Assembly: GCA_033762255.1 (NCBI GenBank) | Contig: JANRLT010000022.1 | Span: 1 to 64,000 of the forward strand | Reading direction: 5' to 3' | Origin: Pirellulales bacterium | Lineage (GTDB): Bacteria; Planctomycetota; Planctomycetia; Pirellulales; JALHPA01 | Length of the DNA stretch: 64,000 nucleotides | Shown here: piece after piece, positions 2 through 22,400 of the stretch | Layout: every line of letters begins with the position of its first letter | How positions within the stretch are numbered: position 1 is the first letter of the stretch | Notes under the pieces: model-generated | Database searches by the model: none | What the model was told of the DNA's origin: nothing | The model's input: only the letters and a program-made list of their open reading frames with translations | Position numbers and translations under genes: made by a program

Positions 2-499
2 TGTCGCGAGCCAAAGTTGCTGCAATACGCCGAGATCGCCAAATACGGCACTCAGCTAGCACGGTGCCTGCGTTACTTTCCCCGCGAGCAACTGCTACTT
101 TTAAAATTTGAGGACTTTGCCTCCGATCCGGGCACTGTTTATCGCCAGGTGCTGGGCTTTTTGGATCTTCCCGATGATGGCCGCGTCGATTTTCCCAAAC
201 ATAATGAAGCCCTCCGCCGCCGCAATCCAACTCTTGCGCGGTTTTTCATCAATCCCCCCGCCTGGCTCCGAGGACCCGCCAGATGGATGGTACGACTGGG
301 TCGCTCTCCCTGGACCCAACCGCTCAAGAATCTTAAAAATTGGATGATCAACCAGCCCGCGCCGCGACAGCCGCTATCGTCGGAATTGCGCGCCCGGCTG
401 CAAGATTATTTTGCCCCGGACCTGGAGCTGTTTGCCGAACTCAGCGGCATTTCCGTCGAGGACTGGCTAGCCCCCCGTACATTCGCGGAGGCTCGATGA
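2..499 (+). CDS. Sulfotransferase family protein (C-terminal part, cut by window edge)
   Basis: The reading frame is open from the left edge, so the N-terminal PAPS-binding loop lies outside the window. What remains resembles the C-terminal half of bacterial sulfotransferases: a YGTQLARCLRYFP helix, then LLLLKFEDFASDP (the usual 'fEdl..dp' segment) and an FLDLP turn, followed by a basic tail. Such enzymes move sulfate from PAPS to a carbohydrate or other acceptor. The stop codon overlaps the next gene's start (ATGA), so the two are probably translationally coupled. With a glycosyltransferase and a Wzz-like protein downstream, sulfation of an exopolysaccharide is a reasonable inference, but the acceptor cannot be read from the sequence. 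Confidence 0.75.
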   Translation, partial: CREPKLLQYAEIAKYGTQLARCLRYFPREQLLLLKFEDFASDPGTVYRQVLGFLDLPDDGRVDFPKHNEALRRRNPTLARFFINPPAWLRGPARWMVRLGRSPWTQPLKNLKNWMINQPAPRQPLSSELRARLQDYFAPDLELFAELSGISVEDWLAPRTFAEAR

Positions 500-1839
500 A
501 AATCATCCTAATCGCCGATTATGGCTACGAAAAAGGAGGGGCCGAACGTGTCGCCTGGGCCAGCGCCCGCGAACTAGTGGAACGCGGGCACGAGGTGCTG
601 GGCTTTTGCGCGGCGGGACCCGTGGATCCCACGATCATGCCCCCTGGAGAAAGTCCCTCTGGTGGAAGATTCTTGCTGGAATGTTTGGATCAGCCGGATT
701 TGCTAAGCGGGGGCGTCTCCACCGCGCTCGGCCAGGGGTTGTGGAATCGTACCGCCGCCCGACATGCCACAGCGCTCTTTGAGCGGCTGGATCCAGCCGA
801 AACAATCGTGCATGCGCATTCCTGGACCCATGCATTATCCAGTAGCCCCCTGGCAGCGGCATTGAATGCCCGCCTGTCACTCGTGGTAACCCTGCATGAT
901 TATTTTTTAGCTTGTCCCAATGGCGGATTTTATAATTTTCCCAGGCAAGAAATTTGTACGCTTGAGCCGTTGGGTTGGAAATGCCTGACGACCAATTGTG
1001 ACGCCCGGGGTATCTCCCATAAGGCCTTTCGGCTGCTCCGCCAAATGGTGCAGCAGTGGCGGGGTAAAATACCAACAAGGTTGCGTCACTTTGTGTATTT
1101 ATCCAATCTCAGTTTGGATATTTTGCGCCCGCATCTGCCGGCGGACGCGCAATTCACGCAAATCCCCAATCCCATTTTGGTTCCTCCCGGCCCCTCCAGC
1201 CAGCCCGCACAAAATGCCGAGTTGCTCTTTATTGGCCGCTTGGTTCCTGAAAAGGCGCCGCTTTTATTGGCCCAAGCGGCGGCAAACCTCAATTTGCCGG
1301 TAACATTTATTGGCACGGGCCCCTTGGCGGATGAGATCGCCCGGATCTATCCGGCGGCCAAGTTAACGGGTCAGTTACCAACCGAGGCGGTGCAGCAACG
1401 TTTGCGTATGGCACGGGCGTTGGTCTTTCCCAGTGTCTGGTACGAGACCCAGGGCCTGGTCGTACTGGAAGCCGCCGCGCAAGGAGTCCCCACGGTCGTG
1501 TCGGATGCCTGCGCCGCCCGCGAGTTTGTCGCTGACAATGAAACGGGCTGGTGGTTTAAGAGCGGCAATTTAGAGGATTTGCAGGCCAAGTTGCGCGGTC
1601 TGGACTCTGGCCATACGGTCGCGGCCGCCGGTCGACTGGCGTACGACCGCTTTTGGGCAAATCCTCCCTCGCTAAAACTGCATGGGGCGCGGCTAGAGAG
1701 TTATTACCAGCAAATTTTGCAAGCCAGAAAAGATGAATGGGCTAGCCCCGGGGAAGCAGGGGAGATAATGAATCCGCGCAACACCCCGATCCGCACGCCG
1801 GGCGGGGAGGTGCCGGAAGAGGCCCTTTTTACCGGCTAA
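496..1839 (+). CDS. Glycosyltransferase, GT4-like (GT-B fold)
   Basis: I start the gene at the ATG at 496, which overlaps the upstream TGA; the frame is open further upstream but that part is antifamily-like sequence overlapping the sulfotransferase. The 447-residue product opens with a GT-B N-terminal strand (MKIILIADYGYEKGGAERVA) containing the glycine turn typical of GT4 enzymes. The C-terminal domain starts near residue 242 (LLFIGRLVPEKAP) and carries the E-x7-E motif (YETQGLVVLEA, Glu317 and Glu325) that binds the nucleotide-sugar donor. A retaining glycosyl transfer from an activated sugar is expected. Neighbours point to exopolysaccharide or surface glycan assembly. Donor and acceptor are unknown. 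Confidence 0.85.
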   Translation: MKIILIADYGYEKGGAERVAWASARELVERGHEVLGFCAAGPVDPTIMPPGESPSGGRFLLECLDQPDLLSGGVSTALGQGLWNRTAARHATALFERLDPAETIVHAHSWTHALSSSPLAAALNARLSLVVTLHDYFLACPNGGFYNFPRQEICTLEPLGWKCLTTNCDARGISHKAFRLLRQMVQQWRGKIPTRLRHFVYLSNLSLDILRPHLPADAQFTQIPNPILVPPGPSSQPAQNAELLFIGRLVPEKAPLLLAQAAANLNLPVTFIGTGPLADEIARIYPAAKLTGQLPTEAVQQRLRMARALVFPSVWYETQGLVVLEAAAQGVPTVVSDACAAREFVADNETGWWFKSGNLEDLQAKLRGLDSGHTVAAAGRLAYDRFWANPPSLKLHGARLESYYQQILQARKDEWASPGEAGEIMNPRNTPIRTPGGEVPEEALFTG

Positions 1840-1965: not shown

Positions 1966-3510
1966 ATGGCTGCTCCAACGCTCACCCAATCCCTGACACC
2001 GTGGGCCTTGCTGGGATCAATCTGGCGGCAAAAGTTGTTATTTGTGGCCATCTTGGGCGGAATATTATTGGCGACCGCGACAGGGTTGTATTTTATCAAG
2101 AAAAAATATACCGCCACGGCGGATTTGTATATTCGACTGGGTCGCGAGACGATCTCGCTGGATCCCACGGTCACCACCGGCAAGGTGGCCAATATCACCG
2201 AGACCCGCGAGACGGAAATCAACTCCATCAATGAATTATTAATTAGCCGATTTTTGCTGGCGCAAGTGGTTGATGCTTATCCGGATCTGCATGAAATTTT
2301 AGAGGATGGGGGAGAAACCGTGGTCAACGCCACCCCCGGCGATCCTGCCGCGCAGTTTTATCTCAAGCCGGTATATAATTTACGGGACGAAGCCATCCGC
2401 ACGCTGATTGAAAATCTCGAAGTCAGCATCGTCAAAAAATCCAATGTGGTGCATGTGGCTTACACGGCCAAGGATCCCATCATCGCCCAAAAGATACTCT
2501 CCACGATACTCAACCTTGGTCAGCGCAAGCACATGGAAGTCAACCGGACTGAGGGATCGCTGGAATTTTTTGATCAGCAAGTGCGCGATTTTAGCGGCAA
2601 GGTGGACGTCATTCAAGAAAAACTACGCGACTTTAAAAATGCGCGAAGCATGTCCCTGTTTGCCAAAGAACGGGAAATATTACTGGAAAGGATTGGCGGG
2701 TTAGAAACAGAATACCACCAGGCCCAGGCCACCATGGCGACATTAGAGCGGGAAATCCAGAGCCGCGAAAAAATACTAGCCGAAATGGAGCCTACCGTGG
2801 TATTGGCCGAAGTTTCGGGTTCGCCGCAATCAGCGGTCGAGGGAATGCGGCAACAATTGTACGCCTTGCAATTGCGGGAAAAAGAACTGTTGTCAAAATT
2901 GGACCCGGATAACGTCCAGATCGTGCAAATCCGGGAGCAAATTTCACAGGCACAAAAACAACTGGCCAGCGAAAAAAATGAACCGCAAATTACCCGCGGT
3001 TTGAATGAGTCATTTCAACAACTGGAAGTCCAGCAACTCGCCCAGCAGGCACAACGGGACGGCGTGGCCGCCAAGGTGCAAATGCTGGCGGAACAACTGG
3101 GCCAGGTCCGGGCGCAATTGGCCAAACTAAATTCGCACGAAGTTGATTTATCCGACTTGGAACGCGAGTTATCGATTAACACCGAAAATCTGCGGCGATA
3201 CACAAATTTTGCCGAGCAAGCCCGGATTGACCAGGCGCTGGCCGAGGAAAGCATTTCCAATATCAACATTATGCCGTCGGACATTAGTTACACCCCCTCC
3301 AGCCCGCGCACCAAGTTAATCCTGGGATTGGCGGGGGTGATGGGCTGTTTCTTGGCGGCATTGGCCGCTTATGCCCGCGACCAACAACCGGCCAACTATC
3401 GCCTTCCCCCGGATCCCGCGCAGGTAGTTAACCCGCGCCCGCAGGACGAGAAATCCCTGGCGCATATCGGCATCAATTCACGTCTGGAACCGGTGGGTGG
3501 CGGCGTCTAG
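1966..3510 (+). CDS. Wzz/GumC-type polysaccharide chain-length determinant
   Basis: The 514-residue protein has the polysaccharide co-polymerase layout: a short cytoplasmic N-terminus, a membrane segment at about residues 24-43 followed by KKKY, a periplasmic domain with a long Glu/Gln-rich coiled coil (about 190-430), and a second membrane segment near 449-470. It should set or assist chain length during Wzy-dependent exopolysaccharide export. There is no C-terminal BY-kinase domain and no Walker motif, so it is the kinase-less form; a partner kinase would lie elsewhere. The cytoplasmic tail of about 45 residues is Pro/Asp-rich. No clear Shine-Dalgarno sequence precedes the ATG. Its place after a glycosyltransferase and a sulfotransferase supports the assignment. 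Confidence 0.85.
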   Translation: MAAPTLTQSLTPWALLGSIWRQKLLFVAILGGILLATATGLYFIKKKYTATADLYIRLGRETISLDPTVTTGKVANITETRETEINSINELLISRFLLAQVVDAYPDLHEILEDGGETVVNATPGDPAAQFYLKPVYNLRDEAIRTLIENLEVSIVKKSNVVHVAYTAKDPIIAQKILSTILNLGQRKHMEVNRTEGSLEFFDQQVRDFSGKVDVIQEKLRDFKNARSMSLFAKEREILLERIGGLETEYHQAQATMATLEREIQSREKILAEMEPTVVLAEVSGSPQSAVEGMRQQLYALQLREKELLSKLDPDNVQIVQIREQISQAQKQLASEKNEPQITRGLNESFQQLEVQQLAQQAQRDGVAAKVQMLAEQLGQVRAQLAKLNSHEVDLSDLERELSINTENLRRYTNFAEQARIDQALAEESISNINIMPSDISYTPSSPRTKLILGLAGVMGCFLAALAAYARDQQPANYRLPPDPAQVVNPRPQDEKSLAHIGINSRLEPVGGGV

Positions 3511-3708: not shown

Positions 3709-6700
3709 ATGTCCGGGAAAGCTGATTATTCGCCGAATTTGTCCGTGGTCCAGCCGGACGAACCACCCCCTCCCCCAGAAGGGCTATTGCATGGCGGATT
3801 TTTTGCGCAGGCCGCCTGTCACCCAAATCGCGTGGCCCTGATCCAAGGTCCTCGTCAAATTACCTATGGACGTTTAGCGGGCCAGGCCTTGGCTATTGCC
3901 GCGCGGTTACGCACACGGGGCGTGGCTCCGGAAGCAACCGTCGCCATCGGCGCGCGCGATCCCCTGCACATGACCGCGGGACTGTTGGGTATCTTGGCAG
4001 CGGGGGGGGCCTATGTTCCCTTGGACAATAGTTATCCAGAACTGCGTCTTACCGGCATGCTGGAGGACGCCAAGGCCTCCTTGGTCCTAGGTGACGAAGA
4101 GTTGCGGCAAAAATGTGCCCCCTGGACGGCAAAACCATCACTGGATAGTTCAACATCAACTGCGGCTGGCACGAATGATAATCAAACAGTCGCTCCCGGC
4201 TGGATATCATTGACGGAATTACTCGCGGGTGACGATTCCCCTAGCGGAGTTGAACACGCTACTCAGGCACTTTTCCATCCTTCCCGCGTCGCCACCCGCC
4301 AACTTGCCTATGTGATCTTTACCTCGGGATCGACGGGACGGCCCAAGGGCGTGCAGATTGAACATGGCATGGCACAAACCACCATACCGGTCATCAATCG
4401 GCTTTTAAGCGTGACGGCCGCGGACCGGGTCTTGGCGGTCTCGTCCTTTAGCTTTGATTTATCGGTCTATGATATTTTTGGACTGTTAGCCGCCGGGGGA
4501 GGGGTGGTTTTTCCCGAGTCGGGCAAAGAACGGGACCCCCGCCACTGGCTGGAATTAATCGCGAGCCAGCGTATCACCCTGTGGAATTCCGTCCCCGCGC
4601 TCTTTGAAATGCTGGCCACTTGGTGCGGCGGCGATATTGCAGCCTCTCGCGCCCAGACCGCCACCTTGCGAGAGGCGCTCCTCAGCGGCGATTGGATTCC
4701 TCCCTCGCTACCCGATCGCTGGCGGGCAATTCAACCGCGGACGCGTTTGGTCAGCCTGGGAGGCGCGACCGAAGGAAGCATCTGGTCCATTTATCATCCC
4801 ATCGAGCAGGTGGATTCGACCCGCCCCAGCATCCCCTACGGCCGCGCCTTGCCGGGCCAACAAATGTACGTATTGGACGGGACGGGGCAAATGTGTCCAG
4901 CGGGAGTCACCGGCGAAATCCACATTGGTGGGCCAGGCGTGGCCCGTGGATACGCCGGGCGGCCTGATTTGACCGCCGAGCGGTTCATCCCGGATCATCT
5001 GCAACATGCGGGCGACGGCAAACTTTATAAAACAGGCGATCTGGGCCGGTATTTTCCCGACGGTACGATTGAGTTTTTAGGCCGGGCCGACCAACAGGTA
5101 AAAATCGGTGGATACCGCATCGAATTAGGAGAGATAGAAACCGCCCTACGGCGGCATCCGCAGATTGCCGAGGCGGTGGTGGTGGCTCGCCGAGACCGTG
5201 GACCGGTCCCTTATTTGGCGGCTTACTATCAACCCCGGACCACGCTAGGGACACAGGACGGCGGTTTGGTCATCGCGGAATCCGACTTGGCGGCGGAGTT
5301 GGCCACCACATTGCCCGCGTATATGCTTCCCGCCAGTTATGTCCTCGTCAACAATTGGCCCCTCACAGCCAATGGCAAAGTTGATCGCCAGGCCCTCCCT
5401 ACACCAGAATTGTCTGCTAACGGACAGGCGGCAAACGACAAATTCGACGCGACAACCCAGACTGCTCCCGACGCCGCGCCCCGTTATTCCCCGCAAGAGT
5501 TAGTCTGGCGGCAAAAATTGCTCCCCCTTTGGAACAAAGCGCTGGGCCAGTCACAAACAGATGACGATGCGGGCTTTTTGCGTTGTGGGGGAGATTCACT
5601 ACGCGCGGTGGAACTTGTGCTAAAAGTGGCACAAACCACGGGCGTAACCTTGTCGCCGGTCTGGCCGCTGGGGCCTGATGCCACGTTGCACAATCTGGTA
5701 AAAATTGCCGCCAGCCAGGCGGCGCAGGCTAGCCCAAAGACGCGTTGCGCGGACTATATCGTGCCGCGGACAAAGTCCCAACCCAGCTACCCGGTCAGTT
5801 ATCCGCAGCGACAGCTTTGGCTGGCCGATCAATTGGCGGGGGATAGTCCGTGCTACAATGTGCCCCTGGCCTGGGAATTTCACGGGGAACTGCGGGTTAG
5901 CGCGTGGCAAACCGCGCTTGCGCAAATTGTCCAGCGGCATGAAATTTTACGAACGGTTTATGTCAATACTGGCGGTCACGAGGTGCGGCAGCGGGTGTTA
6001 TCCCAAGTTGACTTGCAAATCCCGCTGGTGGATTTGTCCTCCGCTGCTTTGCCGGACGCCCGTCAAGCCGCTATCGAGGCTATTTCCGCCGACGCCCGCG
6101 CTCGCTTTGATGTCGCCGCGGGACCGCTGCTGCGGGCTGCTGTTTATCGGCTGGCTCCCCGTGAATATATCCTCTCCATCAATATTCATCATCTCAATTG
6201 CGATGGCTGGACCGTGGGAATGTTGGGCCGGGAATTGTCCCAATTATATCAAGAATTGATCCAGGATCAGACGTTGGTCGACGCACCTAGCCGCTTGCAC
6301 TATGCCGATTATGCGATATGGCAGCGGGAAACGGCAAAATTTGACCAGCAAGCCGACCTGGCCGAATATTGGAAATCGACCCTCCACGACCTACCGGAAA
6401 ATCTGCTCTTGCCGACAGATGCGCCGCGCCCGACGTTGGTCGCGTACACCGGCGCTGCGCACCGGTTTACCATTGACGCCCCTTTAACGGCGGGGCTGGA
6501 GCAACTCGCCCGCCAGACCAACACCTCATTATTCGCGGTGCTGCTAACGGCCTGGCAGATTTTATTGGCCCGGATCAGCGGACAGGACGAATTTTGCCTG
6601 GGGACCCCCAGCGCGGGTCGACAGCGCAGCGGCCTGACAGATTTGTGGGGGTATTTGATTCACGTGCTCCCCTTGCGCTGTAGGCACTCCACCGGCGAAA

Positions 6701-9700
6701 GCGCGCTGGACCTCCTGGTTCGCAATGCGCGAACCGTGGCGGCGGCTTTGGCCAATCAGGATTATCCCTTTGAATCAATCATCAAAAATCTTGGCAGCGC
6801 GCACTTGCCACATGCCTATCCGCTATTTCCCGCGATGATCGTACTCGAGGAAGATCCCGCGAATTATTGGCAACTAGCGGGGGGGAGCCTGCGTGAATTG
6901 CCCATCCATAACCAGACCGCCAAATATGAAATGCTGCTCAGCTTGATGACGCGGCGCCAGGCTGACGCAACGGTATTCAACGATTCGCAAATCCCCGACC
7001 CTTCTGGTGCAAAAAGCCTGGCCACCATTAGCGGAGTATGGGAATATCGCGATGATTTATTCACCGCCGCGCGCATTCAGCGCATGTGCGGTCAGTGGCT
7101 GCAAATCCTGCGGCACATGGTGGCGGCTCCCCATGCCGTGTGGCATGATTTGCCCTTGCTGACCCCTCTGGAACAATCCGCGCTGACTCCGCGGCCCGCT
7201 TGGCGCAATACCGCCGCCGCCGCCTGCGCAAATGTGTTGGAGCTTTTTGCCGATCAGGCCCGTCGCCACGCCCGGGTGGCGGCGATCCACTCCGCGGAAT
7301 GTGACATTACTTATGCCGAACTATACGCCCGCGCGATGGCCCTGGCCGCGCGGCTGCAACAGCGCGGGGTTCGGCCGGATACGCTGGTGGGACTCTCCTG
7401 CGAAAGATCTCCCGCCCAGCTTATCTGCGTTCTGGCCATTTTACAGGCGGGAGGGGCTTATGTGCCGCTGGATCCCGCCCTGCCACCCGAGCGGCTCAGC
7501 CGAATCATGGACATAGCCCGGCCATTTTTGGTGCTGGGGGATTCCCGCTCGCCCTTAGCGCGGTTTGTGCCACCAAGCGTCTGGTTGGACGTGGGCCAAC
7601 TATTGACCGAGCCGCTTCCCACGCCGGAGTACTTGCCCTGTCCCGCCGGACCCGAAAATCTAGCCTATGTGCTGTTTACCTCGGGTTCCACGGGCGAGCC
7701 TAAGGGAGTGGCCATGCCCCACCGGGCATTGGTCAACTTGTTATTATGGCAAGTGGGAGAGTCCGAATTGCCCGTGGGAGCCCGGACGCTGCAGTTCGCC
7801 TCGCTGGGCTTTGATGTTTCCTTTCAAGAGATCTTTGGCACCTGGTGCGCGGGGGGGACGGTCGTCCCAGTTTCAGAGGACCAACGGTCCGACTTTGCCC
7901 AGTTAGCCGGATTGATTTGCGACCATCAAATAGCGCGGCTGTTTTTGCCATTTGTCGCTTTAGAATATGTGGCGGCGGCTTTACTTCCGCGCGTCTCCGC
8001 CTGTCCCCACTTAACCCAAATCATTACCGCGGGAGAGCAATTAAAAATCACCCCCCGCTTGCGTGAGTTTTTTTCCCTGCTGCCACGCTGTCGATTGTGG
8101 AATCATTACGGCCCCACCGAATGCCATGTGGTGACTTCCGCGGAATTAACGGGCGATCCCGCCACTTGGCCGGAACTTCCCCCCATTGGCCGCCCCATCG
8201 CCAACACCGTGGCCTATGTGCTGGACCGGCGCAGGCAACCGCTTCCCCCGGGTGTGCCGGGCGAACTTTTCCTGGGGGGCGCGTGCGTGGCGCGGGGGTA
8301 CCTGTCCCAGCCCGAGTTGACCGCCGAAAAATTCCTCCCTAACCCTTTGCAACCGCATTCCGGAGATTTGCTTTATCGCACCGGGGATTATGCCTTTTGG
8401 AATGATGCGGGCGAGTTACAGTTCCAAGGCCGGCGCGACGATCAGGTAAAAATACGGGGACACCGGATCGAATTAGGGGATGTCGAGGCCGCCCTACGAC
8501 AAAATCCCGCGATCAATCAGGCCGCAGTGCTCGCCTTGCGCGATAGCGCGGGGGACCTGTTTTTGCACGCATTTGTGGCGGGCCAGGGGGATTCAGGCCA
8601 AAAGGATGCCGACTTTTGCGCGGCGGCGAGAAGCGACCTGGCAACGCGTTTGCCCGTCTACATGCTGCCGCAACAGATCACCCGCGTCAGTCAATTGCCT
8701 CTCACGCCCAATGGCAAAGTTGACCGGGCGGCGCTATCCGCTTTACTAACGGCAAAGCTTCCCGGCGAGAGCGCCGCGCCGGAATGCCAGAATTATCACG
8801 AACGACGAATGTTGCGGGTCTGGCGACAAGTGCTTCAACAGCGCCATCTGCGACCCGAGGATGATTTTTATGACTTGGGCGGGGATTCGTTGTTGGCGGC
8901 TAGGCTGTTTACCGCCGTAGAGCGGGAATTTGGCGTGCAATTATCCCTCAGCGAGCTATTAACACGTTCCACTCCCCGCAGTTTGACCCGGTTAATTCTG
9001 GACAAGAACGCTCCTGCTGGCTGGAACTGTCTGCTACCGATTCAAGAAAGCGGGGAACTGCCGCCATTGTATGTTTTGCCCGGAATTGGCGGGGGGTTGG
9101 TTGATTATTTTGCCCTGTCGCGAATCATGGGCAATACGCAGCCAATCTATGGATTACAACCCCAGGGAAGCGACGGCAAAAGCCCCCCCCTGACGACGGT
9201 GCCGCAAATTGCCGCCCAATATGCCGAGCAAATCCGGCGATTGCAGCCGCGGGGACCGTATCACATTTTGGGATATTCATTTGGGGGAGTGGTGGCATAT
9301 GAATTAGCCCAGCAGTTACGCGAGCGGGATTTATCCATAGGTTCATTAACATTGGTCGATGTCAGTTTTGAGGACGCGCGCGAGGAGCCGCTGCATAAAC
9401 GAATCTGGTTTCACCTGCGCTATTTATTTTCCGGCCAGGCGGTCCTGAAGGCGCGGTATTTTACCAAACGGCTAAAAAACTTTTTGCGGCGGATGAAGTA
9501 CGGTTTTCACGAGCGTTCATTGGACTATACGCTGGAATGCATGGACCTGACCCCCGCCAGCCGGCATGTGGCGGCGGCGCACTGGGAGGCCTGGACCAAG
9601 TATCGCCCCGTCCACTATGACGGACCGGTGACGGTGCTCCTAGCCGGGTGGCGGCAAGGAATCCATGGCGACGACCCGCAGGCCTGGGGATGGGAGCATC

Positions 9701-9885
9701 TAGTCCCCGCGGGCGTTACGACGCACCGGATTCCCGGCACGCATGAAAATCTCTTTAAGGGACAAAACCTGCAAATCTTGGCCAAAAAGCTGCATGAGAT
9801 CTTGGCAATCGCGCACAATTGCCCGGAATCGGAAGAGAGCGCGGAAATTGCCGTTCACGACGCGGTCCCCTTAACGGTAGGATAG
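3709..9885 (+). CDS. Two-module nonribosomal peptide synthetase, A-PCP-C-A-PCP-TE, predicted Cys-Pro
   Basis: The 2058-residue protein is a complete small assembly line. A1 spans about 25-540 (core motif FTSGSTGRPKG near 203), PCP1 has its phosphopantetheine serine at Ser630 (CGGDSL), and the condensation domain has HHLNCDG at 827-833. A2 spans about 1210-1660 (FTSGSTGEPKG near 1323), PCP2 has Ser1727 (LGGDSL), and the type I thioesterase has GYSFGG with Ser1857 and His2012. Aligning by eye to the PheA pocket, A1 gives D-L-Y-N-L-S-L-I-W-K, the cysteine code. A2 gives D-V-Q-F-I-A-H-V-V-K, a proline-type code. The HHxxxDG motif marks a normal condensation domain, not a heterocyclization domain. 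No starter C, epimerase, MbtH or PPTase is visible nearby. The expected product is a Cys-Pro dipeptide or a cyclized form of it. No Shine-Dalgarno sequence is well placed before the ATG, but no better in-frame start exists. Confidence 0.95.
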   Translation: MSGKADYSPNLSVVQPDEPPPPPEGLLHGGFFAQAACHPNRVALIQGPRQITYGRLAGQALAIAARLRTRGVAPEATVAIGARDPLHMTAGLLGILAAGGAYVPLDNSYPELRLTGMLEDAKASLVLGDEELRQKCAPWTAKPSLDSSTSTAAGTNDNQTVAPGWISLTELLAGDDSPSGVEHATQALFHPSRVATRQLAYVIFTSGSTGRPKGVQIEHGMAQTTIPVINRLLSVTAADRVLAVSSFSFDLSVYDIFGLLAAGGGVVFPESGKERDPRHWLELIASQRITLWNSVPALFEMLATWCGGDIAASRAQTATLREALLSGDWIPPSLPDRWRAIQPRTRLVSLGGATEGSIWSIYHPIEQVDSTRPSIPYGRALPGQQMYVLDGTGQMCPAGVTGEIHIGGPGVARGYAGRPDLTAERFIPDHLQHAGDGKLYKTGDLGRYFPDGTIEFLGRADQQVKIGGYRIELGEIETALRRHPQIAEAVVVARRDRGPVPYLAAYYQPRTTLGTQDGGLVIAESDLAAELATTLPAYMLPASYVLVNNWPLTANGKVDRQALPTPELSANGQAANDKFDATTQTAPDAAPRYSPQELVWRQKLLPLWNKALGQSQTDDDAGFLRCGGDSLRAVELVLKVAQTTGVTLSPVWPLGPDATLHNLVKIAASQAAQASPKTRCADYIVPRTKSQPSYPVSYPQRQLWLADQLAGDSPCYNVPLAWEFHGELRVSAWQTALAQIVQRHEILRTVYVNTGGHEVRQRVLSQVDLQIPLVDLSSAALPDARQAAIEAISADARARFDVAAGPLLRAAVYRLAPREYILSINIHHLNCDGWTVGMLGRELSQLYQELIQDQTLVDAPSRLHYADYAIWQRETAKFDQQADLAEYWKSTLHDLPENLLLPTDAPRPTLVAYTGAAHRFTIDAPLTAGLEQLARQTNTSLFAVLLTAWQILLARISGQDEFCLGTPSAGRQRSGLTDLWGYLIHVLPLRCRHSTGESALDLLVRNARTVAAALANQDYPFESIIKNLGSAHLPHAYPLFPAMIVLEEDPANYWQLAGGSLRELPIHNQTAKYEMLLSLMTRRQADATVFNDSQIPDPSGAKSLATISGVWEYRDDLFTAARIQRMCGQWLQILRHMVAAPHAVWHDLPLLTPLEQSALTPRPAWRNTAAAACANVLELFADQARRHARVAAIHSAECDITYAELYARAMALAARLQQRGVRPDTLVGLSCERSPAQLICVLAILQAGGAYVPLDPALPPERLSRIMDIARPFLVLGDSRSPLARFVPPSVWLDVGQLLTEPLPTPEYLPCPAGPENLAYVLFTSGSTGEPKGVAMPHRALVNLLLWQVGESELPVGARTLQFASLGFDVSFQEIFGTWCAGGTVVPVSEDQRSDFAQLAGLICDHQIARLFLPFVALEYVAAALLPRVSACPHLTQIITAGEQLKITPRLREFFSLLPRCRLWNHYGPTECHVVTSAELTGDPATWPELPPIGRPIANTVAYVLDRRRQPLPPGVPGELFLGGACVARGYLSQPELTAEKFLPNPLQPHSGDLLYRTGDYAFWNDAGELQFQGRRDDQVKIRGHRIELGDVEAALRQNPAINQAAVLALRDSAGDLFLHAFVAGQGDSGQKDADFCAAARSDLATRLPVYMLPQQITRVSQLPLTPNGKVDRAALSALLTAKLPGESAAPECQNYHERRMLRVWRQVLQQRHLRPEDDFYDLGGDSLLAARLFTAVEREFGVQLSLSELLTRSTPRSLTRLILDKNAPAGWNCLLPIQESGELPPLYVLPGIGGGLVDYFALSRIMGNTQPIYGLQPQGSDGKSPPLTTVPQIAAQYAEQIRRLQPRGPYHILGYSFGGVVAYELAQQLRERDLSIGSLTLVDVSFEDAREEPLHKRIWFHLRYLFSGQAVLKARYFTKRLKNFLRRMKYGFHERSLDYTLECMDLTPASRHVAAAHWEAWTKYRPVHYDGPVTVLLAGWRQGIHGDDPQAWGWEHLVPAGVTTHRIPGTHENLFKGQNLQILAKKLHEILAIAHNCPESEESAEIAVHDAVPLTVG

Positions 9886-9969
9886 GTAAGCCAACTAGAA
9901 ATTTTTTCCCCCCAAGGGTTGTCGGCAAAACAGGCACAACGCCGGACGACACTTTTGTATTGGTGCAGG

Positions 9970-11598
9970 ATGCAACGAATTCTTGTGATCATTGGCTGGT
10001 TGTTGTTATGGTTTGTTTGTCCTGGAGAAAATCTAAAATTTTGCGCTCAAGGAGCGGATCCCGCGGCTCCCTCCGCGACCCGCCACGCATCGCATACAGT
10101 GGCCAAGGCACGCACCCTCTTGCGTGAATCCATTACAACCGATGAGTTGCGCGGCGTGATTGACTTTTTGGCGGATGACGCCCTCGAGGGACGCGACGCC
10201 GGATCGGCCGGGGGACGCGCCGCCAGTTCCTATTTGATTCAGCAATGCCAGCGCCTCAAACTGCGGCCCGCGGGAACGGATGGGCGTTACGATCAGCCGT
10301 TTGACGGCGGAATGCGGAATGTGCTGGCTGTGCTACCCGGCGCCGACCCCGAGGTGCGCGACGAATATGTGGTATTAGGCGCGCATTATGACCATGTGGG
10401 CTATGGAAATCGCAAAAATAGCAACGGCCCCATTGGCTACATTCATAACGGGGCCGATGACAACGCCAGCGGCGTGGCCAGCGTGCTGGAGGTTGTCCAG
10501 GGATTGGCGGAACTTCCCCAGCCCCCGCGACGCTCCATCTTGCTAGCCTTTTGGGATGGGGAGGAAATCAATTTGCTGGGGTCAAAACATTGGCTGGCTA
10601 ATCCGACAATTCCCTTACGCGCCCTCAAAGCCAGCGTCAATATCGACATGGTGGGCCGCCTGCGAGATGACCGGGTCGAAGTTTATGGCACTCGCACCGC
10701 CCGTGGTTGGCGCAAATTGATCTGCCAGGCCAATCAAGCCGCCGACGCAGAACTGCTGCTCGACTTTACCTGGGAAATGAAAGCCGACAGCGACCATCAC
10801 CCCTTTTATGCCGCGGGAATTCCCGTGGTAATGCTGCATACCGGCCTGCATGATGATTACCACCGCCCCAGCGATGACACGGACAAGCTGAATTATAAAG
10901 GTATGGAACGCGTCACTGAACACCTGGCCGAGGTCGTATGGCAATTGGCCAATGAGTTGCCAATCAGCGAGTTTCGCTCCGAATCCCGCGAAGAACGCCC
11001 CGCGCAGCAGGCTAAACTGGAACGCCCGCTGCCACCGCTCCCGGGTCGACTGGGCCTTAGCTGGAAGGAAAATAGTGATTTTTCCCGGGGTTTAACAATC
11101 GCCCAGGTCGCTCCCAAGGGACCCGCCGCGCAGGCGGGTCTGACCGCGGGAGGAGTGCTGCACACCTGGAACGGCGAGCCGATCAGCTCGACTGAGGATT
11201 TTTTGCGGCAGGTTTTTACCGCGCCGCGTGAGGTGACCGTGACGTGGACGCCCTTACCCGTACCGACTAAGGAACCTGCGGCAAAGGCGGATACCCCTCC
11301 CCCCCCCTCCGCCGTGCCCCAAACAGTTGTAATCACCCTGGTCGGCGATCCCGTTCACTGGGGACTGACTTGGCGCGTGGATAGCGCGGAACCGGAAAGC
11401 TTATTGATCAACCGGGTCATTCCTTTTTCGCCCGCGGCGCTGGCGGGGATCCAGGCCGGAGATCGAATTTACGCCGTAAATGACCAGGCCGTGGAGGGCT
11501 CGGACTGGTTTGAAAAGCAACTCGACCAGCCGGAATTAGAGTTTACAATCGAGCGCGCGGGAAAATTCCTGCTGAAAAAAGTTACCGCTTGGCCGTAA
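9970..11598 (+). CDS. Secreted M28-family zinc peptidase with two C-terminal PDZ domains
   Basis: I use the ATG at 9970, which gives a hydrophobic signal peptide (MQRILVIIGWLLLWFVC); a TTG 51 bp upstream would spoil it. The M28 domain (about residues 50-320) shows all expected ligands: His139 and neighbouring HYDHVGYG, Asp163 in NGADDNASG, the Glu198-Glu199 pair in DGEE, Asp226 in IDMVGR and His298 in DDYHRPSD. Two PDZ domains follow (about 355-415 and 455-530), split by a Pro-rich linker. M28 enzymes are aminopeptidases or carboxypeptidases; PDZ-bearing forms with a signal peptide act outside the cytoplasm. It starts 84 bp after the NRPS on the same strand, but nothing else ties the two functionally. 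Confidence 0.88.
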   Translation: MQRILVIIGWLLLWFVCPGENLKFCAQGADPAAPSATRHASHTVAKARTLLRESITTDELRGVIDFLADDALEGRDAGSAGGRAASSYLIQQCQRLKLRPAGTDGRYDQPFDGGMRNVLAVLPGADPEVRDEYVVLGAHYDHVGYGNRKNSNGPIGYIHNGADDNASGVASVLEVVQGLAELPQPPRRSILLAFWDGEEINLLGSKHWLANPTIPLRALKASVNIDMVGRLRDDRVEVYGTRTARGWRKLICQANQAADAELLLDFTWEMKADSDHHPFYAAGIPVVMLHTGLHDDYHRPSDDTDKLNYKGMERVTEHLAEVVWQLANELPISEFRSESREERPAQQAKLERPLPPLPGRLGLSWKENSDFSRGLTIAQVAPKGPAAQAGLTAGGVLHTWNGEPISSTEDFLRQVFTAPREVTVTWTPLPVPTKEPAAKADTPPPPSAVPQTVVITLVGDPVHWGLTWRVDSAEPESLLINRVIPFSPAALAGIQAGDRIYAVNDQAVEGSDWFEKQLDQPELEFTIERAGKFLLKKVTAWP

Positions 11599-13917: not shown

Positions 13918-14730
13918 CTACCGTCGGCGAATTTTTTGCGAAAAATCCTCATCATGCCGGTGCCGATACGCCAATTCATTGATCCGGGCGGAAGCCTGGA
14001 CTTCGGCAAAGGGACGACGATTGTCAATCAGGCCCAAATCATAGGCCAGTCGCGGCGAATGCGCGGGCAACAGCGTTTCGGTCCCATAGCGAATGAGGTT
14101 CGGGCGCAACTCATTGACATGTCGGACAATATTGGTGGTGCAGTTATTGGTCAACGTGTTATAAAATTCCGGCTCATCGGCCAGTTGATTCGCTCGCCGC
14201 AGCATATTTTCAAACATTTTGCGGGCTTGTGCGGGAGTGGCTTTGGTCGGATACAAATACACATCCACCAGCCGCGCCGTCGTCCGCAAATTGATCAGAT
14301 CGCGCTCGTCCCCCACCACGTATTGCAGTTCATACTGGTTAAAGAGCGCTTTCAGCGGATCATAGGTCTCGGTCGCCTCGATCCGCACTTCCGCCGAAAT
14401 ACAGACATACCGCTCACCGCCAAAGCCAAAACTGACCATCACATGGGCCAGGTCCGGCAGGTCGGCGAAGGGCACCACGATCAGATCCACCGTATCCAGT
14501 TTGCGCAGGTCAAACGTCGCATCATAATACTCCAGCTCAATCCGGCTTTCATCCGGCTGCGTGAACCGAGCGTTGCGAATATTATGAACCGTGACCAAGT
14601 CCCCTTGAAAATCGGCCGTGGCCAGTTGCGACAACGCGGGGACCCAGGCGCGCTCATTGCTGGGAACCAGGGCTTTGCAACCGCAGACAGTTAAGAAATA
14701 GCACAACCACAGCACTATTCCACGACCCAT
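13918..14730 (-). CDS. DUF4105 (Lnb-type periplasmic domain) probable lipoprotein
   Basis: The ORF opens at 14814, but the ATG at 14730 gives a short hydrophobic leader ending in a Cys-Gly-Cys pair (LWLCYFLTVCGCKAL), suggesting lipidation, though the lipobox is not classical. The body matches DUF4105, the domain of the lipoprotein N-acyltransferase Lnb: VTVHNIRNARF, LAHVMVSFGF, NQYELQYVVGDERDL and YNTLTNNCTTN. The AH and NNC segments hold the likely catalytic His and Cys. Lnb enzymes transfer an acyl chain within a lipoprotein N-terminus; here the domain stands alone, without extra membrane segments. Activity is inferred only from the motifs. Confidence 0.75.
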   Translation of the reverse strand: MGRGIVLWLCYFLTVCGCKALVPSNERAWVPALSQLATADFQGDLVTVHNIRNARFTQPDESRIELEYYDATFDLRKLDTVDLIVVPFADLPDLAHVMVSFGFGGERYVCISAEVRIEATETYDPLKALFNQYELQYVVGDERDLINLRTTARLVDVYLYPTKATPAQARKMFENMLRRANQLADEPEFYNTLTNNCTTNIVRHVNELRPNLIRYGTETLLPAHSPRLAYDLGLIDNRRPFAEVQASARINELAYRHRHDEDFSQKIRRR

Positions 14731-14969
14731 GTAGCAGGGCGCGGGCTGGGAACGCGGTCTAGCCGTGGGATAAAACAAACTGCTTTGCACTAAATTTACC
14801 GCCAACCGGGACAAACCATTCCAAAGCAGGAATAGCTTTTTAATAATGATTCAGCGGCAAATAAATAACAAAACGTGGCGATTTTTCCAAGCCAACTCTT
14901 GCTAGCAGAGAATGCAGTGGGGGAGCGGCATGGACATGCTAGCAGACAATTAGGCGAGCCATTTCAATT

Positions 14970-15983
14970 TTACATGCCCCCCATCTTCAGCTTATCCAAT
15001 CCTTTTTGGGCCTCTTGGCCAGCCTCGGTATCGGCAAAGTCACGGGCGAGCGCCTCCATCCCCTTGAGTCCCCGGGAATTGGACGCTTGGCTGGGTGCGT
15101 TGAGTTGCTTCATATATTCCTCGAATTTTTTCTGGGCACTCAATTCTTTTTGAATTTCTTTCTCCTTTTTCATCTTATTAGCCATCGTGACCGCCGCTTG
15201 GGCTTCATCCAAACCTTGAAAGTCGCGTCCCAATCCCATCAAAGCCTTGTAAGCGGGCCATTTATTTCCGGCCTGATAATCCTCCTTTGCCGCGGTAAAC
15301 TGCTGATTAAAGTCATTCAAGATGATCTCCCCCAGCGGTTTAAGGGCCGATTTGTCAGCTTCTTTTTTTGCCTGCTTGCGGGCTAGATTAAATCGGGCGA
15401 CCGCCTCGGGCATATTGCCAACTTCCAGGCTCAGCCAGAGGGGTTTTAGTTCGGCGGCAATCCCGGCGGGATCGATTTTCCATTTAGCCTCGCCCACCAG
15501 GCCATCCACAACCGCGGTCAAATTGTTAGGGTCGGCGGGAATGACCCCGCCATTCGGAGTAATCACCCGACACTGGTAGATATTTTGCAAACTGATTTCA
15601 GAATTTAGCAGCGACTTTTCATAACTGCGATCCAGATCAACAATGGCCGGCCACTTGACGCCGACTTCCTTTAAATATCCGGCCACCGCCGCTGGCGCGT
15701 TGCCGGAATTGACCGCCACAAACAAGACCGGCTTATCACGATACTTGTCTGCCTGTTGCAGCCGATTGGGCCAGGCTCCTTTGCATTTGGGGCAATCTTC
15801 TTCATAAAAATACAAAACCACGACTTTCCCCTTTAGACCTTCCATCGTCAAGGGACTGGTGTTGAGCCACAACTTGGGGAATTCAATTGCCGTCTCCTGG
15901 GCCCAGCCGGGGACTGCCGAAAACAAACAACCGCAAATCAGTACCAAGCAGGGCCAAAAACCCCTGGGAATGCAAGCTGGCAT
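14970..15983 (-). CDS. Secreted thioredoxin-like (TlpA/AhpC-TSA) protein
   Basis: The ATG at 15983 has an AGGGGAG Shine-Dalgarno sequence eight bases upstream and gives a clean signal peptide ending near GWAQ; an ATG 57 bp upstream lacks this. The 337-residue product has a redoxin domain (about residues 33-175) with the motif Cys64-Pro-Lys-Cys67 after KGKVVVLYFYEED, as in TlpA/ResA-type thiol-disulfide proteins. The remaining half is helical and Lys/Glu-rich, with an alanine-rich coiled segment, and has no family I recognise. It should act outside the cytoplasm on thiols or disulfides. It is divergent from the giant macroglobulin-like gene. Confidence 0.8.
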   Translation of the reverse strand: MPACIPRGFWPCLVLICGCLFSAVPGWAQETAIEFPKLWLNTSPLTMEGLKGKVVVLYFYEEDCPKCKGAWPNRLQQADKYRDKPVLFVAVNSGNAPAAVAGYLKEVGVKWPAIVDLDRSYEKSLLNSEISLQNIYQCRVITPNGGVIPADPNNLTAVVDGLVGEAKWKIDPAGIAAELKPLWLSLEVGNMPEAVARFNLARKQAKKEADKSALKPLGEIILNDFNQQFTAAKEDYQAGNKWPAYKALMGLGRDFQGLDEAQAAVTMANKMKKEKEIQKELSAQKKFEEYMKQLNAPSQASNSRGLKGMEALARDFADTEAGQEAQKGLDKLKMGGM

Positions 15984-16472
15984 CGCGACAACTCCCCTAC
16001 AAGAATTGCTAATGTAAAGAAAACCGCAAGATCGCATCATACGCTGCGTGACTGCGGCTTGTAAAGCAAATTTGATGATTCCCAGACCAATCTAAATGAC
16101 GGTGGACTAATTTCATTTAACGGGGGAATAAGATTCACTTGGGATTTTTACGGCTCTGTATTTGTTACATTATTGTGACACCAAAATCCTGGGATTTACA
16201 GTAAAATATGGCTGTTGAGGGGAATTGGCGGGAACTTTTACTTCTAGTGCCACGTCAAATTTAAGCAGACTATTGTCACTCAGCTCCTTAAACTGTTTGT
16301 TGACGGGATGCTTTTTTACCGTGCGTCGGCACAAAATGGATTTTTTTGCCTAACTTTTCGACCCGCGGTGAGTGCTTTGGCAAATTACAGCCAGTTAGTG
16401 CCACAATAGCCGTAAATCTTTCCCGCTTTTTGCCCATCGCCAACGCTACTTTTGCATTGAGGGAGTTCACTT
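15984..16472. other. Intergenic region between divergent thioredoxin-like and macroglobulin-like genes
   Basis: 489 bp with no convincing gene. It must hold the promoters of both divergent genes. I found no clear -35/-10 pair with good spacing. The right end holds the GAGGGAG ribosome-binding site of the next gene (eight bases before its ATG). Confidence 0.5.
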
Positions 16473-19400
16473 ATGCGAGTTACAGGCCATCTTGTCCGGC
16501 AATGTTCGCGGCAGTTGTGGGTGAGGTTTCTTTTAGCCACCGCTCTGGTTGCAATGATGTTGCCCATCGCCAAGGCTCAAGAAGCAGACAATCCGGCAAC
16601 CACAAAATCCGGTAACGCCACGTCAGCCAATTCGCAAAATGAGCAGAACACCCCTAAGCTGCGTGAATTCAAACTTTCCGCCGAGATAAGCCAGAAATTC
16701 CAGGATCGAGATTACGCCGCCGCTATTCAACTTATCGACGCAGCCCTGGCCCAGGCAGAGGCCGCTCCAGCCGCTCCCCCCGCCGCGGCTGATCAAGCTA
16801 CTCCTCCCGCGGCGGCGGATACCGCCGCCACGATGCAGCGTGATTACTTGCTTTTTATGAAAGCGCGCGCGCTGCACCTCAGTGAAAAATACGCGGACGC
16901 TGTTACAGTGCTGGATAACCTGATCAAGGATTTTCCGCGCAGCCCCTGGGCACAGCGGGCCCGCTTTGCCAAAGGGGCAGCCTTTGCGCGGCAGGGGGAC
17001 TTTTTGAACGCCGAAAAAATTTATCGGCTCGAGGCGCAGCGGCTGCTCTCCCTCGACCGCAAACAAGAGATCGCTGATATTTACCTGGAATTTGCCCACG
17101 CTTATTTTCAACCCAAGGATGAAATTGCCCAACAACCCAATTATCAAAAGGCGCTGGAGTTTTATCAGCAGGCATTGCTGGTCGGTCCACAACCCGAGAC
17201 TGTGGCACTTTTGGAATTGCGCATCGCGCGTTGCTATCAGTTGCTGGCCAATTTGCCCGAAGCGATCAATCATTACCAGGCATTTTTGCAAAAGCATGGC
17301 AGCGGCGAACAGCGCCCCGCGGCAAAAATGACCCCCGCCCAGCGGGACCGCGATATCGAAGCCCGCTATCGCCTGGGCGAGGCGCACTTGGCCAGTGGCC
17401 AACCGGTGGAGGCCCGCCGCGTATGGCAGGATTTGCTGGCCATTTACCCCGGTGATAAGCACGAACTATTGCCGTTGGCGGCATTTACCCTCGCGCAGAC
17501 TTTTGGCATTCCCAATCCCAGCGGCAAGGAAGATCTAGAATTGGGTGTTGCAGCCTTGGAAAAATTTATTAAGCAATACCCCACCCATGCCAAAGCTCCC
17601 GCCGCGCATCTGCAAATTGCCAATAGTTATCTAAATCAAGGCCGGTCCCCGGACGCGCAGCGTGTTTTGGAAAAGTTTTTGGCGGATAAGCAGTACGAAG
17701 GCAAAGAAGAATTAGCCGACGCGCGCAAACTTCTTGGCCAGGCGCTGGCTTCGCAAAAGCTATTCGCACAGGCCCTGGCAGCGTGGCGGGATTATCTGGC
17801 CAAGCATTCGGCCCATGCCGCCTGGCAGGAAGTGCAGCAAAACATTATTAACACCGAATTTTTGATCGCGCAAGAGGATTTTAACGCAAAGAAGCATGAT
17901 AGCGCGCGGCAGTTGTGGAACGAGTTTTTAGCCAAGTATCCGTTGGATTCCCGCATTCCGCTGATCATGCTGCGATTTGGGCAAATGCACCAAGAGGACC
18001 ACCAGTGGGAACAGGCGATCACCGAATGGCGCAAACTGGTCAGTAAATACCCCCAATCGGAAGAAGCCTCGCAGGCGCAACTACAGATCGCGATCATTAC
18101 CGAGACCAAGCTTAAAAAGCTGGAACGCGCGCTTGAGGAATATAAAAAAGTGACCTGGGGAAGCGCCGTCAATCAGGCTAAATATGCCCTAGCGCGGCTG
18201 ACGTCCAAATTCTTGCAAGTCGCCACCGCGCGGATTTACCGCACGACCGAAAGCCCGCGCGTCATGCTGCAAACCCGCAATATCCCGCAAATCACGGTTC
18301 GTTGCTACCGGATCGATCTGGAAACTTACTTCCGCAAGATGCATCTGATTGGCGGTATCGAGGGGCTGGATATCGCGCTGATCGATCCTGACAAAACGTT
18401 TGAATTTAATATTCCCGATTACGCCCAATATGAGTTACGGCAAAACGAGGTGGAGGTCCCCCTGCCGTCGCTGGACAATGCCGCGAAAGACGCCGCGCAG
18501 GGGGGGGTGGCCGGGGCGATGGCCGTGACCATTAGCAGCCCCACGCTGGAGGCGACCACGCTGGTCCTGCAAAGCGACCTGGACATCATTGTCAAAAGCA
18601 GCCGCGACGAAGTGCTGGTTTTTGCCCAAAATATGCGCACGGGCAAACCGTGGCCAAAAGCCAAAGTCCTGCTAAGCAACGGGCAGACCGTGTTTGCCGA
18701 AGGGACCACCGACGACGAGGGGATTTTCCGGGGTCAGTTTAATCAACTGGCCGAGGCGAACTTGGTCCGCGCATTTGTCACCAGCGGACCGCATACCGCG
18801 TCCAATGCCATCAATTTACAAGGGCTGGAAGTGGGCCGCTCGCTGACGGATATTGGCTACATCTATTCAGACCGGCCCGCGTACCGCGCTGGTCAGGTGG
18901 TGCATATTCGGGGGGTCATTCGCCACGCGGCCAATGACGAATACCAAGTCCCCACGGATAAAAAGTGCAAGATCGAAGTCTTTGACCCGCGCAATCGTCC
19001 TATTTGGACCGAGGAAGTGCAATTGAGCAAATTTGGCGGTTTACGGGGGCTTTTTACACTCCCTGCCACCAGTCCCAGCGGGGAATATCGCATCCTGGTG
19101 ACCGACGTGGATAAGCGCGTCTTTCCCGGCGTCTTTCGAGTGCGCGACTACAAGATCGAGCCGATTCAACTACTAGTCGAGACCGACCGTCGCATCTTTT
19201 ATCGGGGAGAGGAAATCACCGGTAAACTCGTCGCCCGTTACTATTACGGGGCACCGGTTGTGGGCAAGGAATTGCGCTATCAACTGGCCAATGGCAAAGT
19301 GGTCACCGGTCGCACCAACGACAGCGGTGAAGTCCCCTTTACGTTCCCGACCCGTGATTTTCGCGAGTCCCAGGTCCTGCCGCTGCAGGTCAGCCTGCCC

Positions 19401-22400
19401 GAACGGAACATCGCCATCACCCAAAACTTCTTCCTGTCGAACACCGGCTTTTCCGTGGCGGTCACCACGACGCGCCCCGATTTTATCGGCGGTGAAACCT
19501 GGGAAGCCACGATCAAGGCCTTGGATGCCGAAAATAAGCCCCTCGCCCAAGAGTTGACCCTGCGAGTTTTGAAACAAACCGTGGTCAACGGGATTGTCGG
19601 CGAACAGGAAATCAGCCAGCACAAGGTTAAAACCGATGCCGCGACAGGCATCGCCCGCCAGACGCTCAAACTGGACGATGGCGGCACGTACATCCTACGG
19701 GCGGAGGGGACGGACCGCTTTGATAACACGATCAGCGGGCAGGGGGCCGTAACGATATCCGATGAATCCGACACCACTCGGCTGCGGATTTTGGCCGATA
19801 AGCACACATTGGAGGTGGGAGAGCAAGCCAGCGTGCAGATCCACTGGCGGGACGAACCGGTGCTGGCGTTAGTGACGTTTGACGGGGCCAAGATTTTGGA
19901 CCATCGGTTGGTTGAGCTAAAAACCGGCGTGAATCAGTTTCCCTTGCCCTTGACGGCCAAGTTGGCTCCAAATTTTGAACTGGCCGTCGCTGTGATGCAC
20001 GACTTGCCGGACGAAGAAGCAACCGCGTTGGAGACTGACGAAGCCAGCCCCGCCGCCAAAGAGGCGGTAAAAGCTGCCGCCGGTGCCGTCCCGCTCCCCG
20101 CTAAAAAACCCAAGCTGGTGCGGCGCTTTCATGAGGCCCGCAATGCCTTTGACGTGCAGCGTAAATTACGGGTGTCATTGGAAACCCAGCGCAAAGGGAA
20201 CGCCATGGGGCCAATTCGTCCCGGCGAGGAGGTCGAACTGGTCATCAAAACCACCGACGCCCTCGGAAATCCGCTGGCGGCGGAACTCAGCCTGGGCATG
20301 ATCGAAAAGTCGCTGTTGGACCAATTTGCCATGCCCATGGGGCCAATCGTGGAGGCATTTGGCGGGGCGCGGCGGACATCGGCTTTTCGCACGGGTTCCA
20401 GTATTCAGTTTCGGTATCGTCCCGCCACACGGGCGATCAACCGGCAACTGTTGGCCGAAGTGGAGCGGCGGGAACTAGCCGCTGAAGAAGAAGCCCGCCG
20501 CGCGGCGGGGGTGCCGTTTGACGCAATTTTGACCTGGAGTGCCGATGAGAGGAACGTCGATTTGAGCGAATTAGGCGCGATTCGCGATACGAATAGTGAA
20601 ACAGCTCTTGAAAGCCGCGGAGACCCGTTTGGTTATTACAGTGGGGGTGAAGTCCCACAAAACCAGCAATTGCAGCAATCGGCAAACGCGGAATCTAATG
20701 GCACTTCTGGCTTTAATTTTCATGTCGGTCCGTATCGAGGATGGACTGCGGGAGGTGCAGGCGGCGGACAGCCGGCTCAGGGCGGAAGCCAAAACCAGGT
20801 ATCTATTCAGGAATTTAGCTCTCTCGCCGCGAACTCCGCTCCGCGGGGAGGTGCGGCAACTCAGGAAGATTTTGATAGCTTAGTCAACAACATTGTCACA
20901 AGAACAATCCCCCCAGATACAGATCATCAAACGGCAAACGCATCCGATTGGAGCGAATTAAGCTTTAATCAGGATCTCCCCGCCATTTATGACGGCTCCA
21001 ACCGGGGCAAAGCCCTTTCCGAAACCAACACCGCGAATTTTTATAATAACATTCGCATGGGGAACCGCGACTTGATGATGTGCAACCCCAGCACCGGTGA
21101 ACAATGGAATCTCAACATTTCCAACTCCCTGGGCAAAAACTTTACCGTGGCGATGGTGGACGAACTTTGCCGCAAGGTTGCCGCCGGCGGAAATTTGGTC
21201 ATGAATTCCAGCGGCTCGCAGGAAACTGGTTACTGGAATCCACAAATCCTGACCGATGAAAACGGGCTCGCTCGCCTAACCATTACCATGCCCGATCAGG
21301 CGACCGCCTGGAGCTTGACGGCGCGCGGGGTCACACTGGAAACCCTGGCGGGTGAAGCAACCGCCGAACTGACGGTCAAGAAAGACCTCTTTGGCGAACT
21401 CAAGCTCCCCGCCGCGTTTACCGACGGCGATGAGGTGGACGTGCTAGCCGTCGTGCATAACGACGCCGTGGAAAAAGGAGATTTGACGGTCACGCTGCGC
21501 ACGATCATCGGCGGCAAACTGACAGAGGAGCGCAAAACCCTCGCTGTGATGGCGAAGGGAATTCACGAAGTTCCGTTCCGTATCAAATTGCAACGGCCGG
21601 TCAATCCGCCGCTGTCCGCGAAAGCTGCGGAAGCCCCCGCTGATAAACTGCCCATGAATGACGCGCAACCGGACGCAAATGCTGAAAAACAGCCGGACAC
21701 CCCTAAAACTGACACCTCTAAAATTGAAAACGCTAAACCCGATGCCGCCAAAGCGGAAGCCGCCAAAACTGATGCCACCCAGGAACCGACCGATCCCCTG
21801 GCCAATGTGCTGGTGGCGTTTGAACTGACGATCAACGCACCCGTGGCCGATAATGTTCCCCCTCAGGCCGATAATCCACCCGCCAATCAACCCCAGGTTG
21901 CGGAACTGACGGACACGCTCCGCCGGGTGGTCCCGCTGTTGCCTTATGGCGTGACGCTCTCATCCGCCAGCGGCACAACCGCCAGTGGCGATACCAGCCT
22001 CTGGGTGGAGCCGCCTGCGGGAATCACGCTGCGCAATCCGCATTTGCAAGTCATTCTAGGCCCCTCTGTCGAGCGGGGGTTACTTGATATTTTGTTCGGT
22101 ACGCCGGTTAGTTGCCATTTGGATGTGCTGCGCAGTGCTTCTAGCATGGAAATTGCCACCAGCGACCTGCTCGCGGCCCTGGCACTACAAAAGCTCTATA
22201 ACAAAACCCGCGACGCCGGTTCGCCTCAATTACAGGCGATCGACGCCCGCATTCGTTCCTGCATCAGCCAGTTGATTTCCGCCCAGGGGGACGACGCCAG
22301 TTGGTCCTGGTCGGGCCAAACGGGTCCCGGGCATTTATTTACCACGGCGCGGGTGTATTGGGCTCTCACGCTGGCCCGCCAGGCGGGGTATCTCATCAGC

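Follow-up and report, generated by a model that had tools for sequence, protein, structure and literature searches.

Gene content of the locus

The window, by which we mean the whole 64,000-nucleotide stretch of Pirellulales DNA analyzed here, encodes on its plus strand (3709–9885) a two-module nonribosomal peptide synthetase (NRPS) with the order A1-PCP1-C-A2-PCP2-TE. Its reading frame is intact, opens with ATG and specifies 2058 amino acids with no internal stops. Pfam identifies two AMP-binding, two AMP-binding_C and two PP-binding domains, one Condensation domain and one Thioesterase domain, so that adenylation, carrier, condensation and thioesterase functions all reside in a single chain, as in a linear modular synthetase of type I. 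This agrees with a preliminary description of the same DNA, which had proposed two PCPs, one C domain and a terminal TE in a protein of this length.

Each domain, all on the plus strand, could be placed by its Pfam match and a characteristic motif or pocket. The first adenylation domain (A1, 3799–5388) is followed by PCP1 (5500–5703, limits approximate), in which a GGDSL motif carries Ser630, and by the condensation domain (5779–7185). The second adenylation domain (A2, 7231–8748) precedes PCP2 (8806–8997), with Ser1727 in an LGGDSL motif, and the thioesterase (9064–9801), in which GYSFGG contributes Ser1857 and Asp1884 and His2012 provide the other catalytic residues. Together with the condensation motif HHLNCDG (His827, His828, Asp832 and Gly833), the set of active-site residues is complete. 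This motif is of the peptide-bond-forming HHxxxDG type, and the DxxxxD signature of cyclization domains is not present. We therefore rejected a thiazoline or siderophore reading, and no cyclization of cysteine to thiazoline is expected. The source genome encodes two proteins matching the ACPS family of phosphopantetheinyl transferases, in frames of 238 and 131 amino acids; the longer is probably of the Sfp type, judged by length alone. No further modular NRPS was found in this genome, where the remaining matches score weakly and extend over adenylate-forming stretches alone.

Directly upstream of the NRPS gene, across a gap of 198 bp, lies a gene for a 514-amino-acid Wzz-type chain-length/co-polymerase protein (1966–3510, plus strand), with one of its two estimated transmembrane segments at each end. 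The assignment combines a weak Pfam Wzz match below cut-off with a subfamily alignment and the genome searches described below; scores against the NCBIfam chain-length families are also below cut-off. A GT4 glycosyltransferase gene, recognized from its reading frame and Pfam match (340–1839, plus strand, start codon uncertain), precedes it, and a weak match below the Pfam cut-off (17–499, plus strand) may be the 3′ part of a sulfotransferase gene truncated at the contig start. Base 1 of the window is also the first base of the contig, so that genes for Wzx and Wzy are not seen, and of a Wzx/Wzy operon the glycosyltransferase and Wzz alone are visible. Two Polysacc_synt loci, candidates for Wzx, are present in the source genome, both on other contigs that could not be linked to this end.

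Downstream, an M28 peptidase with PDZ domains (9919–11598) begins with TTG 33 bp past the NRPS stop codon. It was considered as an operon partner and rejected, as it is not kept beside the NRPS in relatives. Near the locus, the minus strand encodes a protein with an Lnb N-terminal periplasmic domain (13918–14814) and a redoxin/AhpC-TSA protein (14970–16040). Two very large proteins are also encoded in the window, one of 2970 amino acids (16473–25385) with TPR repeats and bacterial alpha-2-macroglobulin domains (MG2, A2M and bait region), and one of 2902 amino acids (48095–56803) whose sole Pfam match is a weak dockerin-like one near the C terminus.

Predicted substrate specificity of the adenylation domains

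The pocket residues were read at positions 235, 236, 239, 278, 299, 301, 322, 330, 331 and 517 of PheA, using as reference a core sequence 100% identical to residues 184–557 of 1AMU. Alignment to this structure gives DLYNLSLIWK for A1 and DVQFIAHVVK for A2, letter for letter the codes previously read by eye and assigned to cysteine and to a proline-type residue. Published signatures bear out both assignments: DLYNLSLIWK and DLYNMSLIWK are listed for cysteine and Val236/Gln239 is a hallmark of proline (PMC12283262), and an iturin proline domain has the code DVQFIAHVXK (PMC2866473).

The nearest solved adenylation cores to A1 are those of BmdB (7ly7) and PchE (7emy), both from cysteine-using synthetases, and pairwise alignment shows the pocket segments FDLSV(Y/F)D, WN(T/S)xPA, LLSGD and LGGATE..IWS to be common to all three. 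In a tree of 60 adenylation domains, A1 groups with BmdB and PchE in a clade with 100/100 support, and A2 falls within an equally supported clade (100/100) of seven proline-code domains. A1 thus combines a DL(Y/F)N(L/M)SLIWK pocket with membership of a clade of known cysteine domains, as expected of a cysteine-specific domain, and the DVQ..AHV pocket of A2 is that predicted for a proline-specific one. Since orthologues keep the same positions (see below), the pocket residues are not a matter of chance. Considered together, these comparisons make it very probable that the substrates are cysteine and then proline. The architecture and both codes also support the Cys-Pro dipeptidyl intermediate suggested earlier, and the enzyme would accordingly be expected to make Cys-Pro. 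A second C-like domain that might act as an epimerase was not found in the NRPS by Pfam, and the product is therefore expected to be L-Cys-L-Pro.

Relatives of the synthetase

A scan of genome contigs with the whole NRPS returned no relative, and a broad NRPS search in 200 genomes of the class brought up for the most part unrelated synthetases whose codes differ (for example DILQLG(L/M)IW and DAFWLGGTF), so that rank by full-length match alone was misleading. The productive route was to query with A1 alone and afterwards with the Wzz protein. Among 297 genomes of the order, the A1 search recovered two frames of 2012 and 2011 amino acids (genomes G353 and G313) with the layout A-PCP-C-A-PCP-TE and the codes DLYNMSLIW and DVQFIAHVA. 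It also recovered two single-module A-PCP-TE proteins with the cysteine code DLYN[M/L]SLIW (G410 and G052). With the loci found through Wzz, full-length orthologues with the same codes are known from G353, G313, G449, Rhodopirellula sallentina, R. rubra and Aporhodopirellula aestuarii, and are about 37% identical to the window NRPS over the whole length.

The synthetase genes of G353, G313 and G410 are each directly preceded by one for a Wzz-like protein of 512–522 amino acids, 33–36% identical to that of the window. The G052 protein (code DLYNLSLIW; L055:7278–9947, minus strand) stands alone, with no Wzz or exopolysaccharide context found among the neighbors checked. Other Pirellulales NRPSs of different architecture also have cysteine-type codes, namely DLFNFSLIW (L092:8712–18938), DLFNLSLIW (L091:8422–12537) and DLYDMSLIW (L093:9659–13855).

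Coupling to a Wzz subfamily and an exopolysaccharide operon

A profile built from four Wzz proteins (window, G353, G313 and G410) and run on 347 genomes of the order gave six matches of 729–907 bits, with the next at 452, which delimits a sharp subfamily. Two of the six (G449 and G494) were new, having been missed by the NRPS search, and in both a full Cys-Pro NRPS lies immediately downstream. A second scan, with the six-row Wzz alignment, recovered A. aestuarii, R. rubra and R. sallentina (the last matching the G494 locus), each with a Cys-Pro NRPS of 2001–2026 amino acids directly behind Wzz. Family-wide, the subfamily has members in 7 of 241 genomes, or eight members with the window; a phylum-wide sample of 343 genomes added none, the window genome being the sole case.

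An adenylation domain is encoded immediately downstream of all eight subfamily members, but at none of the 24 Wzz loci ranked next; loci of the same genus are not independent, and the separate lineages are the window (from another family), the two-module group of Pirellulaceae, and G410. Seven of the eight synthetases, including that of the window, are of the Cys-Pro type, and that of G410 is a single cysteine module. For the four loci ascertained through Wzz alone (G449, R. sallentina, R. rubra and A. aestuarii), an NRPS was predicted and found in every case. The homologous loci that the preliminary description had proposed to seek exist, and the Cys-Pro relatives found all lie behind one Wzz subfamily. 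The two genes are separated by −10 to +24 bp in relatives and by 198 bp in the window.

The relatives place this pair in a larger operon. That of A. aestuarii runs from a Bac_transf initiating sugar transferase through Wzx, a Wzy-like protein with multiple transmembrane segments and two GT4 glycosyltransferases to Wzz and the NRPS. The order from Wzx to NRPS is the same in G353 and G313 and also, judged by gene lengths and by homology of those pieces that were tested, in the Rhodopirellula species and G449. In G410, Wzx, Wzy and Wzz are followed by the single-module A(Cys)-PCP-TE protein. Wzy was called from a Pfam match in G410 and from topology and position in the other genomes. Wzx, a Wzy or Wzy-like protein, Wzz and glycosyltransferases thus occur together in the relatives, as in a Wzx/Wzy-dependent pathway; the glycosyltransferase of the window is not orthologous to those of their operons. 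Across the relatives the sole constant partner of the NRPS is the Wzz subfamily, and in their operons no dedicated exporter, tailoring enzyme, regulator or acyltransferase gene is conserved beside it. The coupling to Wzz and the Wzx/Wzy operon of the relatives point to a polysaccharide-linked role, and we are highly confident of a functional connection of some kind between the NRPS and exopolysaccharide.

A proposed model for cysteinyl-proline transfer to polysaccharide

Our preferred model, held tentatively and with a confidence just short of even, is that the NRPS serves a Wzx/Wzy-type exopolysaccharide pathway as its dedicated L-Cys-L-Pro synthetase, most likely placing a thiol-bearing dipeptide on the polymer. 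From the domain anatomy and codes, A1 would load PCP1 with L-cysteine and A2 would load PCP2 with L-proline; the C domain would link the two residues, and the Cys-Pro acyl group would pass to the terminal TE. Before the lipid-linked sugar repeat unit is exported, or while this happens, the TE would most likely transfer the acyl group to one of the unit's hydroxyls or amines, and the equivalent step in the single-module A(Cys)-PCP-TE variant would add cysteine alone. The outcome may be an exopolysaccharide whose thiol side groups can engage in disulfide bonds or metal binding, in a layer such as the adhesive or the envelope. Three observations argue for transfer: the NRPS has machinery for polymer assembly as its sole constant partner, it is accompanied by no exporter or tailoring gene of its own, and a single-module Cys-PCP-TE enzyme would be pointless as a hydrolase. 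With no peptide bond to make, this variant fits aminoacyl transfer better than secretion of a dipeptide. Counting against transfer, type I thioesterases usually hydrolyze or cyclize their substrates, and a Cys-Pro thioester whose amine is free can close spontaneously to a diketopiperazine, a reaction familiar from the gramicidin S and tyrocidine systems. The rarity of the operon (7 of 241 family genomes, and the window genome alone among 343 of the phylum) also counts against this reading, as do the absence of visible Wzx and Wzy genes in the window, whose contig is cut off at base 1, and its glycosyltransferase, which is no orthologue of those in the relatives. The specific proposition that the TE transfers Cys-Pro (or Cys) onto the Wzx/Wzy repeat unit, giving a thiolated, disulfide-crosslinkable exopolysaccharide with the NRPS as a step in its assembly, is accordingly put forward as a possibility that we hold to be somewhat doubtful.

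A free small molecule is a strong rival, to which we give a sizeable minority of our confidence. In this reading the TE, or spontaneous cyclization, would release the linear Cys-Pro dipeptide, its cyclic form cyclo(Cys-Pro) or a thiolactone. Once secreted, the compound would bind metals, act in redox chemistry or serve as a signal, and it would be co-regulated with exopolysaccharide production or control it. Released dipeptides are typically made by enzymes with the layout A-PCP-C-A-PCP-TE, proline in second position favors diketopiperazine formation, and the operon link could be mere co-regulation. Yet no exporter, tailoring enzyme or regulator dedicated to such a product accompanies the NRPS, whose one constant partner is the Wzz subfamily, and the single-module version would futilely hydrolyze cysteine to cysteine, or cyclodimerize it. 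The thiol-bearing, metal- or redox-active small molecule of the preliminary description stands as a rival; it was proposed without genomic context, and the coupling to Wzz points instead to a polysaccharide-linked role.

We consider it improbable that the dipeptide is destined for another acceptor, be it a lipid carrier, a protein of the cell wall or a glycolipid built from the same sugars, for example in a disulfide-bonded planctomycete wall. The proteinaceous, disulfide-bonded wall and holdfast substance described for R. baltica (PMC2754498) would suit such a destination, but the operon has no conserved acceptor-protein gene and its link is to genes for Wzx, Wzy and Wzz. Seen in the window alone, with the NRPS 198 bp behind Wzz and no visible Wzx or Wzy, the arrangement could be an ordinary NRPS that happens to adjoin an unrelated polysaccharide locus. 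The contrast between subfamily and control Wzz loci (8/8 versus 0/24), the synteny, and the overlap or 21–24 bp spacing of the two genes in relatives contradict chance, which we regard as very improbable.

If transfer to polysaccharide is correct, NRPS machinery would belong to polysaccharide assembly and some planctomycetes would make a thiol-carrying glycan, whose chemistry could underlie strong adhesion or crosslinking and be usable for materials. R. baltica is described as having a holdfast substance and a proteinaceous wall that lacks peptidoglycan and is held by disulfide bonds (PMC2754498), a setting in which a thiolated polymer would make sense, although we take this only as a lead. 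On a more modest reading, the loci define a compact, conserved family of Cys-Pro synthetases with a fixed genomic partner. As the family occurs in named culturable strains (R. rubra and A. aestuarii), product and function are directly testable.

Comparison with known systems

BmdB (bacillamide) and PchE (pyochelin) resemble A1 in pocket, sequence and clade. Their modules form thiazole or thiazoline rings through Cy domains, in which, as also in HMWP2, DxxxxD replaces HHxxxDG; in contrast, the window enzyme has HHLNCDG and would use cysteine as the starter. The code of A2 is like that of iturin-type proline modules (DVQFIAHV), but these lie inside larger lipopeptide assembly lines, whereas in the window NRPS proline comes last. 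The aureusimine synthetase AusA (NCBIfam NF047350) shares the two-module dipeptide layout and partial similarity, with a score for the window NRPS of 718 bits, far under the cut-off of 2500. The C-terminal domain of AusA is a reductase rather than a TE, and we know of no polysaccharide context for it.

Exopolysaccharide loci of the XrtA/exosortase-A type likewise encode an adenylating enzyme (TIGR03098) beside a chain-length protein (TIGR03007), and TIGR03007 is the NCBIfam chain-length family that the window Wzz most resembles. The scores are nonetheless below cut-off in both cases (373 of 592 and 97 of 279) and, unlike the AMP-forming ligase of those loci, the window enzyme is a complete NRPS with condensation and thioesterase domains. 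In its mode of working the NRPS may be likened to D-alanylation of the DltA type and to glycinylation of lipid A by AlmEFG, in which carrier-bound aminoacyl groups decorate a surface glycan. Those systems use a discrete carrier and a separate transferase, whereas here carrier and TE are united in one protein that would make a dipeptide.

A literature search limited to open-access papers found no report of an exopolysaccharide-linked cysteine NRPS, consistent with the earlier statement that no planctomycete product of this kind has been described. What can be read from sequence is how the enzyme is built, which codes it carries, that these are conserved and that the gene is coupled to its neighbors; production of Cys-Pro and its transfer to polysaccharide are predictions built on this. 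Part by part the enzyme is a conventional NRPS; the system as a whole has no counterpart in the open-access literature searched, and what is new relative to the preliminary description is the exopolysaccharide context of a Cys-Pro synthetase.
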